Part shown: in pieces, positions 5 to 15,348 of the stretch
Layout: each line of letters opens with the position of its first letter
Position numbering within the stretch: the stretch's first letter is position 1
Assembly: GCA_017656425.1 (NCBI GenBank)
Contig: JACDNV010000027.1
Location: 1-19,050, forward strand
DNA from: Candidatus Neomarinimicrobiota bacterium
GTDB lineage: Bacteria; Fidelibacterota; UBA2242; B5-G15
DNA length: 19,050 bases
Direction: 5' to 3'
Notes under the pieces: model-generated
Database searches by the model: none
The model's input: only the letters and a program-made list of their open reading frames with translations
What the model was told of the DNA's origin: nothing
Program-made: the position numbers and the translations under genes

Positions 5-68
5 AGCCATCTAGCTATCTCGCTATCTAGCCGTCTAGCCATCCAGCCATCCAGCAATCTCGCCATCT
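5..68. repeat. Octanucleotide array 1 (B-type units only)
   Basis: Eight consecutive 8-nt units of the form AGCYATCY (for example AGCCATCT, AGCTATCT, CGCTATCT) run without a phase break. The window starts inside this array, so an A-type half may lie to the left. It runs into CAATCGGATGAG and then a MITE-like right arm, the same order as at the end of array 2. Confidence 0.85.
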
Positions 69-77
69 CAATCGGAT

Positions 78-114
78 GAGATTGCCACGCTCGCTTACGC
101 TCACTCGCACTGAC
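78..114. repeat. Solo right arm of the hairpin-armed MITE-like repeat
   Basis: GAGATTGCCACGCTCGCTTA followed by a variant of the GCTCGCTCGCAATGAC ending matches the right arms at 864-899, 2401-2437 and 2537-2573. No left arm is present here, so this is a partial copy. Confidence 0.75.
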
Positions 115-134
115 AGAAGATAATCCACATACAC

Positions 135-163
135 TTGCAACCATATCTGAGAATTAGTATATT
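135..163 (+). promoter_or_regulatory. Possible sigma70-type promoter for the coiled-coil gene
   Basis: TTGCAA at 135-140 and TATATT at 158-163 are separated by exactly 17 bp, and the coding start is 28 bp further on. The -35 matches consensus at four of six positions and the -10 at five of six. This is inferred from spacing and sequence only; such matches also occur by chance in A+T-rich DNA. Confidence 0.4.
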
Positions 164-190
164 TAAGTTGCATTAACTATTGAGGTCGAA

Positions 191-634
191 ATGCCTGTTG
201 TAACAGTTAAAAAGCCTTTAAGAGAAAAACTCGGGGATGACGGCATAGAAGCTTTAGTCGAACTTATAAACGAAGCACAGAAAGAAACTAAAAACAACGT
301 AATCCAATTCGTCGAAGAAAAATTCGAAAAAAGACTCTCCGAAGAATTGGCTAAGGTAAGAGTTGAACTTACAGGAAGAATCGAAGGAGTAAGAACTGAA
401 CTGAAATCCGAAATCGAAAGCCTGAGAAGCGAAATGAAATCCGAAATCGAAAACCTGAGAAGTGAAATGAAATCTGAAATCGAAGGACTAAGAACCAACG
501 ATGAAAGGATAAAAACTGAGCTTATCGAAAGAATAGAGAAAAAACATTCAGACACTGTTAAATGGATGTTTATCTTCTGGGTTGGGCAGATTGGTGCTAT
601 CCTAGGGATACTCTTTGCCTTCTTTAAAGGTTAA
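191..634 (+). CDS. Coiled-coil protein with C-terminal membrane anchor
   Basis: A 147-residue protein of unknown biochemical role. Residues 1-30 (PLREKLGDDGIEALVELINE) resemble the N-terminal block of small DUF1640-like coiled-coil proteins. Residues about 30-122 are almost entirely charged helix, with an 11-residue repeat of the SEMKSEIENLR type at residues 71-102. Residues about 124-145 are one hydrophobic helix followed by Lys-Gly at the C-terminus. The architecture predicts a tail-anchored protein with a long oligomeric coiled coil on one face of the inner membrane. The start is supported by GAGG 6 nt before ATG and the promoter-like pair upstream. It is the only plus-strand gene in the window and is not part of the polysaccharide operon. 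The family assignment rests on overall resemblance, so function is left open. Confidence 0.85.
   Translation: MPVVTVKKPLREKLGDDGIEALVELINEAQKETKNNVIQFVEEKFEKRLSEELAKVRVELTGRIEGVRTELKSEIESLRSEMKSEIENLRSEMKSEIEGLRTNDERIKTELIERIEKKHSDTVKWMFIFWVGQIGAILGILFAFFKG
401..496 (+). repeat. 33-bp in-frame tandem repeat inside the coiled coil
   Basis: Three adjacent units (401-433, 434-466, 467-496, the last partial) share ATGAAATCCGAAATCGAA and encode the 11-residue coiled-coil repeat. High DNA identity suggests recent duplication and possible copy-number variation that keeps the reading frame. Confidence 0.8.
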
Positions 635-649
635 TTCAAGAGTTAAAAA

Positions 650-703
650 GTTCAACGTTCGACGTTCAACGTTATAGGGTTCAACGTTTGAGAGTTCAAT
701 GTT
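650..703. repeat. Short interspersed GTTCAACGTT repeats
   Basis: GTTCAACGTT occurs at 650-659, 664-673 and 679-688, with the variant GTTCAATGTT at 694-703. Start-to-start spacings are 14, 15 and 15 nt. The array lies just downstream of the coiled-coil gene. A partial inverted version (GAACTTTGAAC) lies near 728-738. No function can be read from it. Confidence 0.7.
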
Positions 704-750
704 GCCTTCCCACAAATGCGGAACATAGAACTTTGAACTCTACCATATCC

Positions 751-899
751 CGTTCGCAATGACATCAACCTGTCGTTGCTAGGAGTCCCAACTGGACGAC
801 GAAGCAATCTACAATGCTAAACACTTGATGGCTCAAATGTTCACTACATCGACCATGCAAAGTAGATTGCCACGCTCACTTACGTTCGCTTGCAATGAC
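751..899. repeat. Hairpin-armed MITE-like repeat, copy 2
   Basis: The order is a truncated right arm (751-763, CGTTCGCAATGAC), a left arm (772-810, GTCGTTGC...GAAGCAATCT), a 53-bp centre, and a right arm (864-899, AGATTGCC...GCAATGAC). Left and right arms are approximate reverse complements, so the unit can form a long imperfect hairpin. The centre aligns without gaps to that of the copy at 2446-2573 (both hold TACAATGCTAAA and CCATGCAAA). The unit carries no plausible gene. Confidence 0.75.
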
Positions 900-969
900 A
901 TGTTTGCAAGCATATATATAATCTTCGTAATAACAAAAAACATTAAAAACTTTATAAGTTACTACTTTT

Positions 970-2148
970 TTACCGTACAACAAACCCAATCATGTCTAAA
1001 TAATCATTTACCGTTAATATTAATAATTTTCTCTTTGCAGGATATTTCTCAAAAAAATCCTTCTGTTTATCTTCCATATTTCTTCCATATTTTACTTCCA
1101 GTATGGTATCATCCCAGTAAAAATCAATCTCAATTCCATCCTGATATATGTAAAAAGGTTGTTTTTCTTTAATTGACAGATATACAAGATTTTCAAAAAT
1201 CGCTCCTTTATCCCTGAATCCATTAAAAAGATTTCTAATACCAACATCAGCCGCATAAATCTTCCGGGGAGATTTAATTCTTTCATTTAATTTACCTTTA
1301 CGTTCGACAAGATGTATCAGGTAAGTCTTGCGAAAGTACTCAAGATACCTCCTTGCTGTATCCGGAGAAATATCAAGAATCCTTGCAATCTTATTAATAC
1401 TTACCAGTTTCCCGACTCTTTCCATAATCAACCTGCAAAAATCTTTTACCATACCTACATCTCGAATTCCAAATGCAGAGACTATGTCCTTATAAATAAC
1501 ACTCTCAATTAAGTTATCAAGATAATTGATATCACCTGTTAAAACATACTCAGGGATTCCACCATTTTTCATATATTCTTCAAAATACGACTCCAGCAGA
1601 TAGGTTTGTGATCTTTTAATGGTTATACTTTTAAATTGCAAATACTCACGAAAATCAAGGGGCATGATTTCTATTAGTCGTGCTCTTCCTGTCAACATAG
1701 CTCTGGTATCATTTAGTATTGTCGCCGAAGAGGAAGAGGCAAAAATCTTTACATTTTCCGAATCATAAAGATTTTTTAATTCCTGATGGATATTTGTTCG
1801 ACACCCTGCCTCATCAAAAAAAACGTACACCTTTTGCTCAAGTGGAATTTTGAAAATCTTACGATACTCCCTCAATATTTCCATAGTGGAAAACGGTTCT
1901 AAGGGGATTGAATCCAAGGAAACGTAGAGGATGTGCTCAGGTTTAACATCTTTAAGTAATCTAGAAATCATAAGTTTCATAATAGAGGTTTTGCCGACTT
2001 TTCTTAATCCTGTTATCAGGATTATATCTCTATTCTTCAAATCACTTTCTAAATAGCGAATATATTTTTCTCTTGGAATAAGAGATAGTGAATATTCACC
2101 CTCCCACCATGGATTATATTTGAACAACTCCTCTGATATGTTAATCAT
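970..2148 (-). CDS. AAA-type ATPase with C-terminal DUF4143 domain
   Basis: About 392 residues. The N-terminal half is a P-loop ATPase: Walker A GLRKVGKTS near residues 47-55 and a hydrophobic strand ending FFDEAG (Walker B) near 110. A winged-helix-like segment (SINKIARILDISPDTARRYL) sits in the middle. The C-terminal part matches the DUF4143 nuclease-like fold, including EIDFYW and ILEVKYG. The family is widespread in bacteria and archaea, usually as solitary genes, with no settled function. A TTG-initiated form (2160) adds four residues; I prefer the ATG at 2148 because the upstream sequence is operator-like. No strong Shine-Dalgarno is visible. It has its own promoter, is convergent with the coiled-coil gene, and is not obviously linked to polysaccharide synthesis. 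Autoregulation is suggested by the repeated motif over the promoter. Confidence 0.9.
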   Translation of the reverse strand: MINISEELFKYNPWWEGEYSLSLIPREKYIRYLESDLKNRDIILITGLRKVGKTSIMKLMISRLLKDVKPEHILYVSLDSIPLEPFSTMEILREYRKIFKIPLEQKVYVFFDEAGCRTNIHQELKNLYDSENVKIFASSSSATILNDTRAMLTGRARLIEIMPLDFREYLQFKSITIKRSQTYLLESYFEEYMKNGGIPEYVLTGDINYLDNLIESVIYKDIVSAFGIRDVGMVKDFCRLIMERVGKLVSINKIARILDISPDTARRYLEYFRKTYLIHLVERKGKLNERIKSPRKIYAADVGIRNLFNGFRDKGAIFENLVYLSIKEKQPFYIYQDGIEIDFYWDDTILEVKYGRNMEDKQKDFFEKYPAKRKLLILTVNDYLDMIGFVVR

Positions 2149-2149
2149 T

Positions 2150-2200
2150 TTATACGACAAACTCGCTCATATCGTATAAATATCGACAATATTATACGAT
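2150..2200. promoter_or_regulatory. Three evenly spaced TTATACGAY operator-like motifs
   Basis: TTATACGAC at 2150-2158, its reverse-complement form ATCGTATAA at 2171-2179, and TTATACGAT at 2192-2200 have starts exactly 21 bp apart, about two helical turns. The last two form a perfect 9-bp inverted repeat. The first touches the ATPase start codon and the third overlaps the promoter -10. This looks like a repressor-binding cluster; the binding protein is unknown. Confidence 0.6.
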
Positions 2201-2219
2201 GTATTCGTATATATATCAA
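2191..2219 (-). promoter_or_regulatory. Sigma70-type promoter for the ATPase gene
   Basis: On the minus strand, TTGATA (complement of 2214-2219) is followed after 17 bp by TATAAT (complement of 2191-2196). This is a five-of-six -35 and a perfect -10 at optimal spacing. The predicted transcription start near 2184 leaves a leader of about 36 nt before the ATG at 2148. Confidence 0.65.
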
Positions 2220-2231
2220 CAAATTTTTGTT

Positions 2232-2391
2232 AGCCTGATAGCCTGACAGCCAGTTGGCCAGTTAGCTTGTTATCCTGACAGCTAGTTAGCTCGATAGCTT
2301 GATAGCTTGACAGCCAGTTAGACCATTTACCTCTCAGCCATCCAGCTATTTCGCAATCTATCTATCTAGCCATCCAGCCATCTCGCCATCT
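2232..2391. repeat. Octanucleotide array 2 (A-spacer-B)
   Basis: Eleven A-type units (AGCYNGWY, for example AGCCTGAT, AGCTTGAC, AGCCAGTT) at 2232-2319 are followed by the 16-nt spacer AGACCATTTACCTCTC at 2320-2335, which is itself two octamers long. Seven B-type units (AGCYATCY) follow at 2336-2391. The 8-nt phase holds throughout. The right MITE arm begins 9 bp later. Confidence 0.85.
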
Positions 2392-2400
2392 CAAACAGAT

Positions 2401-2573
2401 GAGATTGCCACGCTCGCTTATGCTCGCTCGCAATGACTGTATCACGTCGTTGCGAGGAGTCCCATAGTGACAACGAAGCAATCTACAATGCTAAATGCTC
2501 GATGATTCAAATATTTACCATCTTGTCCATGCAAAAGAGATTGCCACGCTCGCTTACGCTCGCTCGCAATGAC
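2401..2573. repeat. Hairpin-armed MITE-like repeat, copy 3
   Basis: Right arm 2401-2437, left arm 2446-2484 (GTCGTTGCGAGGAG...GAAGCAATCT), centre, and right arm 2537-2573 (GAGATTGCCACGCTCGCTTA...). This is the same right-left-right order as the copy at 751-899. The left and final right arms can pair over about 37 nt with mismatches. The apparent reading frame through it (2433-2660) is not a gene. Confidence 0.8.
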
Positions 2574-2615
2574 AGAAGGGCTTACCTGCGAACAACAAAG
2601 CAACCTTTATCAACG

Positions 2616-2642
2616 AAAAATAAAAAAGCCCCGAAAAGGGGC
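2616..2642 (-). terminator. Rho-independent terminator, leftward
   Basis: Read on the minus strand, a 5-bp G+C stem (GCCCC/GGGGC, 2628-2642) with a TTTTC loop is followed directly by TTTTTTATTTTT (complement of 2616-2627). It lies downstream of the four-helix-bundle gene and would stop transcripts coming from the polysaccharide locus before the ATPase promoter. Confidence 0.75.
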
Positions 2643-2650
2643 GACCCAGC

Positions 2651-2806
2651 AGCGTGTTAGCTTGTTAGCCTGTTGGCTTGATAGCCAGTTAGCTTGATAG
2701 CTCGTTAGCTTGTTAGCTTGTTAGCCAGTTAGCTTGACAGCCTGTTAGACCATTTACCTCTTAGCCATCTCGCTATCTAGCTATCTAGCCATCTAGCCAC
2801 CCAGCC
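2651..2806. repeat. Octanucleotide array 3 (A-spacer-B), running into a coding end
   Basis: Twelve A-type units at 2651-2746, the 16-nt spacer AGACCATTTACCTCTT at 2747-2762, and five B-type units plus a half unit to 2806. The B part overlaps the end of the four-helix-bundle gene, so the last residues of that protein (WLDG) and its stop codon are encoded by repeat sequence. Confidence 0.85.
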
Positions 2807-3153
2807 TCTTTCACCCTCTTATAGAAACTCCACAACCTCTTACTCAACTCATTCTTAAGAAATTCAAGCTCCTTAAAATCACTATTTTTAATGTAACCAA
2901 GCCTAAGGGAAAAATCTATAAGGTACTCTGCCTCAGCTAATGAACCGATTGCTATATTTACAAATCTCGCAAGCTCCCTATCACCCTTCCTTGAATAACC
3001 TTCAACAATATTTAATGGAACCGATAATGCCGCTCTTCTCAATTGAGATGTAATCCCAAAAATTTCATGCTTTGGAAATAACCTGGTTATACTGTACACT
3101 TCAAAAGCAAACTTATCAGCTAACTCCCAGACTTTAAGACTTTTATAGTTCAT
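2785..3153 (-). CDS. Four-helix-bundle protein (23S rRNA intervening-sequence family)
   Basis: 122 residues, the usual length of this family. Conserved blocks are present: YKSLKVWELADKFAFEVY at the start, then LRRAALSVPLNIVEGYSRK near residues 38-56, and LAEAEYLIDFSLRLGY near 73-88. Homologues were first noticed as ORFs in intervening sequences of 23S rRNA genes and form small helical oligomers; their role is not established. No rRNA surrounds this copy. The ATG lies only 3 nt from octanucleotide array 4, with no recognisable Shine-Dalgarno, and the stop lies inside array 3, so the gene sits directly between two repeat arrays. It would be the last gene of the leftward transcript before the terminator at 2616-2642. 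A decayed relative lies at 6345-6618. Confidence 0.9.
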   Translation of the reverse strand: MNYKSLKVWELADKFAFEVYSITRLFPKHEIFGITSQLRRAALSVPLNIVEGYSRKGDRELARFVNIAIGSLAEAEYLIDFSLRLGYIKNSDFKELEFLKNELSKRLWSFYKRVKEAGWLDG

Positions 3154-3156
3154 TTT

Positions 3157-3391
3157 GGCCTATTGGCTTGTTAGCCAGTTAGCCTGTTAGCTTGATAGCT
3201 TGTTGGCCAGTTAGCTTGACAGCCTGTTAGCTGGTTAGCTCGATAGCTAGTTAGCTTAATAGCCTATTAGACTACCTCTTACCTCTTAGCCACCCAGCTA
3301 TTTAGCCATCAAGCCATCTCGCTATCTCGCTATCTAGCCGTCTAGCTATCCAGCTATCCAGCCATTTCGCCATCTAGCCATCCAGCCACAT
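3157..3391. repeat. Octanucleotide array 4 (A-spacer-B), the longest
   Basis: Fourteen A-type units at 3157-3268, a 19-nt spacer (AGACTACCTCTTACCTCTT) at 3269-3287, and thirteen B-type units at 3288-3391. The spacer resembles that of arrays 2 and 3 but is 3 nt longer, shifting the phase. One end lies 3 nt from the four-helix-bundle ATG; the other is adjacent to the stop codon of the sugar-transferase relic. Confidence 0.88.
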
Positions 3392-11019: not shown

Positions 11020-12578
11020 AGTCGTTCCTAAAAAATTTGTTTTTAGAAGTTTATTAACTGATATGCTAAAACGGAAATGAAACCTTTATCTGAATTAACA
11101 ACTTCTTAGATTTCTCGCTCATGTTTCTCAGGACAAAAAATAAAAAATATAGCATAGCTGCGAAGAACCTTCTAATATTGTAGCCAAATGCACAGAGAAG
11201 AGCATTAATTCTATCTCTTTATTCTCCTTTGAGATAGTTCCTTCCCATACAGTTATCATGTTTTAAATGACTTATTATCGGTTCTATAGCTGACCTACGC
11301 TTCATATACATACACATCTAGCGACTTATCTTTCTATACGATTTCCCACGTCTGCTGATCTTTATCTCAATCTCTCCTTTATAATTGTGCCCTATATATC
11401 CCCTATCACAATATGCTTCACGAGGAGTCTTCCACGTCAATCGCTCTACCTGAGAAAATACCTATTCTAATGTATGTCCCTCATATGGATTTCCATGAAA
11501 GGCCAATATACCTATGATCCAGTTATCTCCTGAGGTTGAAACAATAATTACCTTATTGCTAAATTCATATCTTTTATGAACCTTATCCTTAGATATGTAT
11601 TCTACTTCTATGACATGAATCGAATAAATCTTATTTTTATCTCAGAGGGATCCTTTATACTATCTCTCTCCCGAACTAATAGTTGATATGCCAATTCTAT
11701 AAATCCTTTAACTCCTGATCTGGAACATCTACCTTACGGTGTATATCCCTTACTACCCTATCCAAATAAGTATTCAATTCCCCGGTCTCCTTACTGGCAC
11801 ACTTCATATGCTTTGCATAGAAATACCTACCCTGCTTGACTAAGGCTCTTTTACTCAAATGTTATAACTATGCCGAATTTTATACCTATCTTCTACGCCT
11901 CATTTACGAATTTCTCACGCATCTTGTGGTATAACTTTGTGTCTGTGGGATAGGTGATAGCCTTCTCTTATACCGTTGTATCAACATTAACCTTATTGAA
12001 ATGTCTAACCTTTATGAGTTCACAACTCATATACATCTGAATAATTACCTGTAACAATTTCTCTATACCTCGAGAACCTATCCTCCTACACCACTTTACC
12101 AAACTGGTAGGATCAATAGGATATTCATGTGTAAAATACTCATATCCAGTAAAATATTGCTAATCTCGATGGAATCTCTTCAAAATATGGATCTTCTATA
12201 AACTGTTCAACTACCGATTCTTCACTCTCGCTATATGTGTGTTTCAGATAGTATAAGACTACCATAAGTCTTATCGGCTTAGTCGACCTCCCCTTACCTT
12301 CCGAATAATACTTACCAAACTCATTTCCTCCCAAAGGAATGCCTTCGGCAAAAAAATGACCAATCGATTCTTTTTGCCAGCTTAACCAATGGATACTCTC
12401 TACCGAATATAACATCCAGGCATGATTGAAATAACTTAAGAGTTGAAGTATATTTTTTATTTAACATAAATCACCAGATTTTTTGATCATTTCTAATATT
12501 TCTGGTTATTTATGCAATAAATATCAAGATCTAAATACTTATATTTATAATATGTTAGAAAATATTTCAGGGAAGACT
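11020..12578 (-). mobile_element. IS5-like element, copy A (inactivated)
   Basis: About 1.56 kb bounded by inverted ends, AGTCGTTCC on the left and GGAAGACT on the right (consensus inward AGTCNTCCCTGAAA). It carries a broken DDE transposase gene on the minus strand. The left flank is AATT but the right flank is ATCT, so there is no clean 4-bp target duplication. Positions 11227-12505 are identical to 13997-15275 in copy B, while the outer parts differ. Confidence 0.85.
11130..12415 (-). pseudogene. IS5-family (DDE, DUF772-type) transposase, copy A
   Basis: The first 91 residues (12140-12415) form an open frame: WQKESIGHFFAEGIPLGGNEF, then TKPIRLMVVLYYLKHTYSES, the DUF772-like N-terminal domain. 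Beyond the first stop the rest of the family sequence is readable in pieces: HFNKVNVDTTV*EKAITYPTD (first Asp), AYCDRGYIGHNYKGE (second Asp), and MKRRSAIEPIISHLKHDN (Glu). At least five stops or frame changes interrupt it, for example where homologues have Gln or Glu. It cannot make an active transposase. The exact C-terminal end is uncertain because the 3' part diverges from copy B. Confidence 0.82.
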
Positions 12579-13790: not shown

Positions 13791-15348
13791 AGTCGTCCCT
13801 GAAAAAATTGTTTTTAAAAGTTTATTGACTGATATGCTAAAACAGAAATGAAACCTTTACCTGAATGAACAATTTTCTGGATTTCTCGCTCATGTTTTTC
13901 AGGACAAAAAATAAAAATGTAGAAAAGCTACGAGGAACTTTCTAATATTGTAGCCAACTGCACTGAGAAGAGCATTAATTCTATCTCCTTCTTCACCTTT
14001 GAGATAGTTCCTTCCCATACAGTTATCATGTTTTAAATGACTTATTATCGGTTCTATAGCTGACCTACGCTTCATATACATACACATCTAGCGACTTATC
14101 TTTCTATACGATTTCCCACGTCTGCTGATCTTTATCTCAATCTCTCCTTTATAATTGTGCCCTATATATCCCCTATCACAATATGCTTCACGAGGAGTCT
14201 TCCACGTCAATCGCTCTACCTGAGAAAATACCTATTCTAATGTATGTCCCTCATATGGATTTCCATGAAAGGCCAATATACCTATGATCCAGTTATCTCC
14301 TGAGGTTGAAACAATAATTACCTTATTGCTAAATTCATATCTTTTATGAACCTTATCCTTAGATATGTATTCTACTTCTATGACATGAATCGAATAAATC
14401 TTATTTTTATCTCAGAGGGATCCTTTATACTATCTCTCTCCCGAACTAATAGTTGATATGCCAATTCTATAAATCCTTTAACTCCTGATCTGGAACATCT
14501 ACCTTACGGTGTATATCCCTTACTACCCTATCCAAATAAGTATTCAATTCCCCGGTCTCCTTACTGGCACACTTCATATGCTTTGCATAGAAATACCTAC
14601 CCTGCTTGACTAAGGCTCTTTTACTCAAATGTTATAACTATGCCGAATTTTATACCTATCTTCTACGCCTCATTTACGAATTTCTCACGCATCTTGTGGT
14701 ATAACTTTGTGTCTGTGGGATAGGTGATAGCCTTCTCTTATACCGTTGTATCAACATTAACCTTATTGAAATGTCTAACCTTTATGAGTTCACAACTCAT
14801 ATACATCTGAATAATTACCTGTAACAATTTCTCTATACCTCGAGAACCTATCCTCCTACACCACTTTACCAAACTGGTAGGATCAATAGGATATTCATGT
14901 GTAAAATACTCATATCCAGTAAAATATTGCTAATCTCGATGGAATCTCTTCAAAATATGGATCTTCTATAAACTGTTCAACTACCGATTCTTCACTCTCG
15001 CTATATGTGTGTTTCAGATAGTATAAGACTACCATAAGTCTTATCGGCTTAGTCGACCTCCCCTTACCTTCCGAATAATACTTACCAAACTCATTTCCTC
15101 CCAAAGGAATGCCTTCGGCAAAAAAATGACCAATCGATTCTTTTTGCCAGCTTAACCAATGGATACTCTCTACCGAATATAACATCCAGGCATGATTGAA
15201 ATAACTTAAGAGTTGAAGTATATTTTTTATTTAACATAAATCACCAGATTTTTTGATCATTTCTAATATTTCTGGTGGTTTATGCAATACATATCAAAAT
15301 GTAAATACTTATATTTATAATATGTTAGGAAATATTTCAGGGAAGACT
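13791..15348 (-). mobile_element. IS5-like element, copy B (inactivated), flanked by AATT
   Basis: About 1.56 kb with inverted ends AGTCGTCCCTGAAAAAATTG (left) and the complement of AGTCTTCCCTGAAATATTTC (right). AATT lies directly outside both ends (13787-13790 and 15349-15352), fitting a 4-bp target duplication. It sits in the same orientation as copy A and separates two GT2 genes that were probably adjacent. AATT also precedes the left end of copy A, so it could instead belong to the ends or reflect target preference. Confidence 0.87.
13899..15185 (-). pseudogene. IS5-family transposase, copy B
   Basis: Same broken gene as in copy A, with the same internal stops throughout the shared 1,279 bp. 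The N-terminal 91-residue frame (14910-15185) is identical. The C-terminal fragment (13899-14087) is open: MKRRSAIEPIISHLKHDNCMG, with the catalytic Glu, then GEEGDRINALLSAVGYNIRKFL. Copy B therefore preserves the 3' end of the gene better than copy A. No intact transposase of this family is present in the window. Confidence 0.85.

Follow-up and report, generated by a model that had tools for sequence, protein, structure and literature searches.

Octanucleotide repeat arrays around an S23 gene as probable arms of a small element in a Candidatus Neomarinimicrobiota genome

The window (the whole stretch of DNA analysed, 19,050 nt) is contig C27 in the assembly of a Candidatus Neomarinimicrobiota genome (2.8 Mb in 50 contigs, 99.7% complete). 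It carries four arrays of tandem octanucleotides. An earlier note had described these as an A half, a spacer and a B half; mapping of the exact halves bore out both the build and the A-spacer-B order. All array parts are assigned to the bottom strand. Array 1 (positions 5–68) is a B half alone, eight octamers long and truncated by the contig end; positions 1–4 (TCTT) are the end of the spacer preceding it. Array 2 consists of an A half of 11 octamers (2232–2319), a spacer (2320–2335) and a B half of seven octamers (2336–2391), which on the bottom strand form the 3' arm, the loop region and the 5' arm, respectively, of a predicted hairpin. The same array, with the same 5' flank, is also found in G200, a genome of a sister genus. 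In array 3, an A half of 12 octamers (2651–2746) and a spacer (2747–2762) are followed by a B half (2763–2806) made of five octamers (2763–2802) and a decayed unit. Array 4 contains an A half of 14 octamers (3157–3268), a 19-nt variant of the spacer (3269–3287) and a B half of 13 octamers (3288–3391).

The bottom strand carries an intact gene exactly between arrays 4 and 3, which the earlier note did not mention. It encodes an S23, or 23S rRNA-intervening sequence, protein of 122 aa (2785–3153; PF05635, E-value 4.8e-33), whose solved relatives are 2GSC (E-value 4e-18) and 2RLD. PF05635 (S23/IVP) is the protein that 23S rRNA intervening sequences (IVSs) encode; until now it has been known mainly from insertions within ribosomal RNA. 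The start codon is located 3 nt past the A half of array 4, whereas the last codons extend into the B half of array 3, so that the 3' end of the gene and the array overlap. Just past array 3, a hairpin followed by a T-run, GCCCCTTTTCGGGGCTTTTTT (2622–2642, bottom strand), reads as an intrinsic terminator, and this flank has a homologous counterpart at another array of the genome, C31b. The bottom-strand order of the locus is thus B' of array 4, spacer, A', S23, B' of array 3, spacer, A' and terminator, with the B half of array 4 as the outer upstream arm and the A half of array 3 as the downstream arm of an S23 cassette. The arrays had been described as non-coding, which is true except where the S23 gene ends: stops occur in all frames of both strands except in the last S23 codons, and we rejected the arrays as protein-coding sequence.

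The whole genome was searched with patterns of four consecutive units. The A pattern matched 116 times and the B pattern 64 times, compared to none for either pattern read backward; the arrays are therefore not due to chance. Twelve arrays were found genome-wide, the four on C27 and eight outside the window, on contigs C2, C4 (two), C14 (two), C31 (two) and C32. Units are 8 nt long in all 12 and A precedes B throughout, as expected from the dispersed family of fixed polarity and variable unit number proposed previously. The spacer is present in nine of the 12 arrays (19 nt long in one of them), and in two, C14b and C32, the A half is joined directly to the B half. Since these two copies and the arrays read in G200 lack the spacer, which sits at the hairpin loop, it is not the essential anchor that it had been taken for. 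The unit consensus, proposed as AGCYNGWY and AGCYATCY, was refined with 269 units from 13 arrays (11 of the source genome and two of G200) to RGCYNGWY for A (148 units) and MGCYAYCY for B (121 units); in nearly all units of both halves, C or T occupies the variable positions 4 and 8. A search against Rfam returned no match. When the pattern was scanned against 85,000 genomes, most of the matches listed were near-perfect runs that lacked the A-spacer-B build, and among them near-perfect AGCYNGWY runs occurred in very many genomes. In the viral contigs scanned, only simple octamer runs were seen. REP-like palindromes, which the earlier note did not mention, adjoin most of the array copies.

The two halves are complementary in register, another property that had escaped the earlier note: YAGCY, the core of A, is matched by AGCYA in B, and G6 by C7. 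Bottom-strand RNA (B', spacer, A') of nearly all copies is predicted to form a single long, imperfect hairpin, which agrees with the structured element suggested as one possibility in that note. In 11 of 13 arrays the bottom strand had a lower minimum free energy than the top strand (for example, -129 vs -78 for C31b and -65 vs -36 for the copy win1), with z-scores of -4 to -15 relative to shuffled sequences. The lower energy of the bottom strand is explained by the top-strand Y being R on the bottom strand, where it pairs with U as A-U or G-U. Permuting the order of units within the halves left the fold energy unchanged, and no site-by-site covariation was seen; any unit can therefore pair with any other, and the hairpin results from the composition of the units and gives no indication of covariation between individual sites. 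When the entire 741-nt bottom strand was folded, the predicted structure enclosed the S23 gene between B' of array 4 and its pairing partner, A' of array 3. The sense strand had the lower energy at only 16 of 28 S23 loci (p = 0.31), so that the advantage is not general and RNA-level selection is unsupported across S23 loci. It is the complementarity of the halves, together with the link to S23 genes, that defines the arrays.

The source genome encodes nine S23 proteins, and all nine genes are adjoined by tandem repeats of 7 or 8 nt. One of these elements, with AATGCAA-type repeats, is followed by S23-less copies that share its arms and right-hand flank. Octamers of the exact family stand beside an S23 gene only in arrays 3 and 4, the other ten of the 12 arrays having none. 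With a single S23-adjacent site in the genome, what ties these other copies to S23 is their sequence and analogy rather than a neighbouring gene.

The flanks of the window S23 gene scored 32.5 for complementarity, compared to a 95th percentile of 15.5 for swapped flanks. Upstream and downstream flanks exceeded the corresponding threshold at 121 of 155 S23 loci pooled from many phyla, the remaining 34 falling below it, but at only 7 of 70 control genes (other genes within the phylum loci; p = 1e-22). Short tandem arms were present at 126 of the 155 loci, with a period of 7 nt in 80 and of 8 nt in 38, and complementarity and periodicity occurred together at 103 of 155 S23 loci vs 3 of 70 controls. 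Within the phylum, where genomes are mostly fragmented assemblies, arrays lay within 200 nt of 22 of 28 S23 genes vs 5 of 26 DUF4143 control genes (Fisher p = 2.7e-5), and median flank complementarity was 19 for S23, 11.5 for controls and 10 for swapped pairs. In 41 genomes of other groups, a sample that is not neutral, having been picked for containing octamer runs, 22 of 29 S23 loci exceeded the 95th percentile of swapped flanks. Complete plasmids reached through protein similarity alone (11 cyanobacterial and one from Gemmatimonadota) gave complementary flanks at 12 of 12 S23 loci by the pooled threshold, and the S23 genes of the cyanobacterial plasmids examined are flanked by heptamer arms. 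In general, then, S23 genes are enclosed by complementary arms built of 7- or 8-nt units, in a sample biased toward the best profile matches.

The nearest relatives of the window protein share its octamers. The closest, at locus L037 (66% identity), likewise has AGCY octamers, as does the next nearest, L304, found in Elusimicrobia by the cross-phylum scan, and the three proteins form one clade with a support of 99. Over the S23 tree as a whole, arm period is clustered, requiring 21 changes compared to 32 after shuffling (0 of 500 shuffles), a difference to which near-copies contribute. The length of the arm unit therefore tends to follow the S23 lineage.

Mobility was assessed by comparing related sites. 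Five S23 elements on complete plasmids of Nostoc, Calothrix, Aulosira and relatives have orthologous sites that lack both gene and arms: past a TraM-domain gene, between two ribonucleotide reductase genes, between two secretion genes and, in two cases, between hypothetical genes. As these empty sites are free of any array, arms and gene appear to arrive together. The TraM site is empty in Nostoc sp. C057, L427 and L429 and is occupied by S23 with GGGAACA arms in Nostoc sp. C052 and N. edaphicum; at L428 it holds a 260-nt S23-less region with GGGAAC...GTTCCC arms, which folds back on itself. Between the two S23-bearing plasmids the element is 99.7% identical, and its flanks have diverged (83% identity for the upstream and 94.5% for the downstream gene), indicating that it was exchanged or else arrived after divergence of the flanks. 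The two S23 genes show one difference in 363 positions and no synonymous change; arm identity is 97–100% apart from one 7-nt unit. Slippage had been suggested previously as the source of the octamers; change by whole units, at least, was seen directly in a related element, as a 7-nt arm difference between two alleles. In three plasmid pairs the dN/dS of S23 was 0.11–0.14, and the gene is under purifying selection in the plasmids tested. No consistent or clear target-site duplication was observed in the five plasmid comparisons, and we found no transposase that would account for movement of the S23 elements. For the octamer family of the window itself, G200 yielded no usable empty site, comparison at array C4a returning only repeats and short fragments. 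The genome contains a single Y1_Tnp match (E-value 3.5e-10) within an 817-aa frame, and with this one weak candidate RAYT-driven REP spread was rejected as the whole story. A retroelement route was likewise rejected, the reverse transcriptase domain PF00078 having no match in the 99.7%-complete genome.

Short heptanucleotide repeats of cyanobacteria, STRRs, were reportedly described by Mazel in 1990, and Vioque is said to have placed one in the RNase P RNA gene in 1997. Their hairpins have been noted (PMC2670836). The octamer arrays resemble them in being short, tandem, intergenic, hairpin-forming and variable in copy number, but have units of 8 nt and occur in a non-cyanobacterial phylum. In rRNA IVSs, such as those with an S23/IVP ORF in Coxiella and Leptospira, the ORF is located in a loop between complementary ends and the insertion is excised by RNase III (PMC4990558). 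The window locus shares with 23S rRNA IVSs an S23 ORF between complementary ends able to form a long RNA stem. It differs in its position between protein genes rather than in an rRNA gene (there is no rRNA in the window, and no 23S gene was found in this assembly), in arms that are arrays of degenerate 8-nt units instead of a single inverted repeat, and in the many S23-less copies in the source genome. The statement that no named repeat has this build is fair for the octamers, but STRR heptamers and 23S rRNA IVSs are close in kind. The window element falls outside both in the strict sense, being neither in rRNA nor heptameric, yet would work like both. The intergenic heptamers GGGAATC of Xanthomonas (PMC4692102) and TAACTGA of Beggiatoaceae (PMC4679880) are likewise short, tandem and of unexplained abundance, with other units; neither paper mentions S23. 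As small dispersed hairpins without an enzyme of their own, and with REP-like palindromes beside them, the arrays also recall MITEs and REP/BIME sequences; the difference is that their arms are tandem arrays and that the genome has one Y1-transposase-like frame. Finally, S23 is homologous to Avd (PMC10053308), the four-helix-bundle protein of diversity-generating retroelements (DGRs), but the source genome lacks a reverse transcriptase.

Taken together, these observations make it probable that the arrays represent arms of a small S23-type element, related to IVSs but free-standing, and that the other arrays are its S23-less relatives. The arrays might instead be plain tandem repeats born of slippage, with S23 lying between arrays 3 and 4 by chance. 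Ten of 12 arrays do lack an adjacent S23 gene, and near-perfect AGCYNGWY runs are found in very many genomes among the matches listed; but the association of S23 with arms across 155 loci, with controls and swapped flanks, the same octamers at the nearest S23 relatives and a complementarity of A and B that slippage of one unit does not produce leave this explanation strongly disfavoured and quite improbable. It is also rather improbable that the arrays came first and served as a preferred target into which S23 inserts. Such an order of events would suit the location of the gene within, or next to, the B half of array 3, as well as the excess of S23-less over S23-bearing arrays in the source genome. 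Against it speak the five empty plasmid sites without any array and the flanks themselves, which are complementary and not one array split in two. The arms without a gene at L428 are best read as gene loss, though they could also represent a pre-loaded target.

Another explanation is that the arrays are RNA or DNA control elements maintained by the host, to which S23 binds for regulation and not for spread. Hairpins between genes and ahead of start codons, the intrinsic terminator after array 3 and the REP-like palindromes next to most copies are in its favour, as are the proposals that STRR hairpins are transcript stabilisers or terminators in cyanobacteria (PMC2670836) and that heptamers ahead of start codons are regulator sites in Beggiatoaceae (PMC4679880). 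The arrays have no conserved host gene attached to them, however, and can be present in one of two close relatives and absent from the other, which speaks against their being essential for control; we regard this explanation as unlikely. We can give almost no credence to S23 as an Avd-like accessory part of a DGR: the homology with Avd (PMC10053308) would fit, but PF00078 is absent throughout the 99.7%-complete genome and no pair of template and variable repeats was seen near the S23 gene.

If the arrays are indeed arms of a free-standing S23-type element, its full form would comprise the S23 gene with an arm of short tandem units upstream and one of complementary tandem units downstream, both arms lengthening and shrinking through slippage of whole units. 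In RNA of the S23 sense, the gene would occupy the loop of a long stem. By analogy with rRNA IVSs, RNase III probably cuts this stem, which would render insertion between host genes tolerable, and S23, as a homologue of the DGR protein Avd, may bind the stem and aid spread of the element. The other ten octamer arrays, which have no S23 gene beside them, would descend from such elements as S23-less, MITE-like derivatives. A much wider proposal, which we put forward tentatively and with slightly more doubt than confidence, is that free-standing S23 genes are widespread, unrecognised small mobile elements that consist of an Avd-like gene and self-complementary arms of 7- or 8-nt units, spread between genes and leave S23-less hairpins behind; S23 might then recognise its own arms, and such elements might be the common source of rRNA IVSs, STRRs and much of the so far unexplained heptamer and octamer load of bacterial genomes.

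Parts of this picture are already known, namely S23 in the loops of rRNA IVSs, STRR heptamers and their hairpins (PMC2670836) and the abundance of heptamers (PMC4692102, PMC4679880). A link between free-standing S23 genes and such repeats was not found in the open-access literature searched, subscription papers being outside its scope. The discovery of IVSs lay more than 25 years back when their origin was still termed unclear (PMC4990558), and bacterial tandem repeats of 7 and 8 nt have been described as over-represented and little studied (PMC4692102). The unit of an S23 gene between repeat arms looks like an overlooked small mobile element of many bacterial phyla. Its architecture accounts for odd annotated proteins whose ends run into repeat sequence, and ties together three separate questions: the function of S23/IVP, the origin of rRNA IVSs and the abundance of 7- and 8-nt repeats.

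On the strand corresponding to the sense strand of S23 genes, the spacers that separate the A and B halves of the octamer arrays (that of array 2, at positions 2320-2335 of the window, and the others) read RAGAGGTAAATGGTCTAA. On this strand the spacer contains the Shine-Dalgarno-like motif AGAGG, followed by ATG GTC TAA, with GTG replacing ATG in arrays C2 and C4b, located on other contigs of the same genome. Nearly all octamer arrays are adjoined by one or two copies of a REP-like, MITE-like element of ~150 nt, the ends of which are GTCATTGCGAG...CTCGCAATGAC; copies are found at positions 751-900 and 2425-2574 of the window.

The same genome contains a second S23 family, represented by four near-identical copies with arms composed of AATGCAA heptamers (e.g. 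loci L044 and L041, on contigs C9 and C5, respectively). Hairpin copies devoid of the S23 gene are present downstream of the AATGCAA-flanked S23 and are arranged in tandem at L044. A further family of short tandem repeats, with the unit GTTCAACGTT, occupies positions 642-703 of the window and is also dense at locus L045, where it adjoins a broken S23 gene. The backward control pattern, YCGAYNNN octamers, yielded many matches in two genomes from another family within the same phylum (G009 and G013), which probably represent a separate octamer family. S23 elements, consisting of an S23 gene between complementary tandem-unit arms, also reside within CRISPR-cas operons at loci L328, L333 and L335: one separates cas10 from cmr3, and the other two separate cas6 from cas4. 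The assembly containing the window, although rated 99.7% complete, yielded no 23S rRNA gene.

The polysaccharide gene cluster of the window contains two identical 91-aa fragments of an IS transposase (DUF772; 12140-12415 and 14910-15185). A repeated coiled-coil gene with internal 33-bp repeats (191-634 in the window; 9224-9556 in L032) recurs adjoining octamer arrays, including after array C31b. An AAA/DUF4143 ATPase gene (970-2160 in the window; 230-1426 in L236) is immediately preceded by an octamer array, and this pairing is retained in the sister genus, G200. Since the remaining neighbours of the gene differ between the window and G200, it appears as if the ATPase gene and the array had moved as a module.
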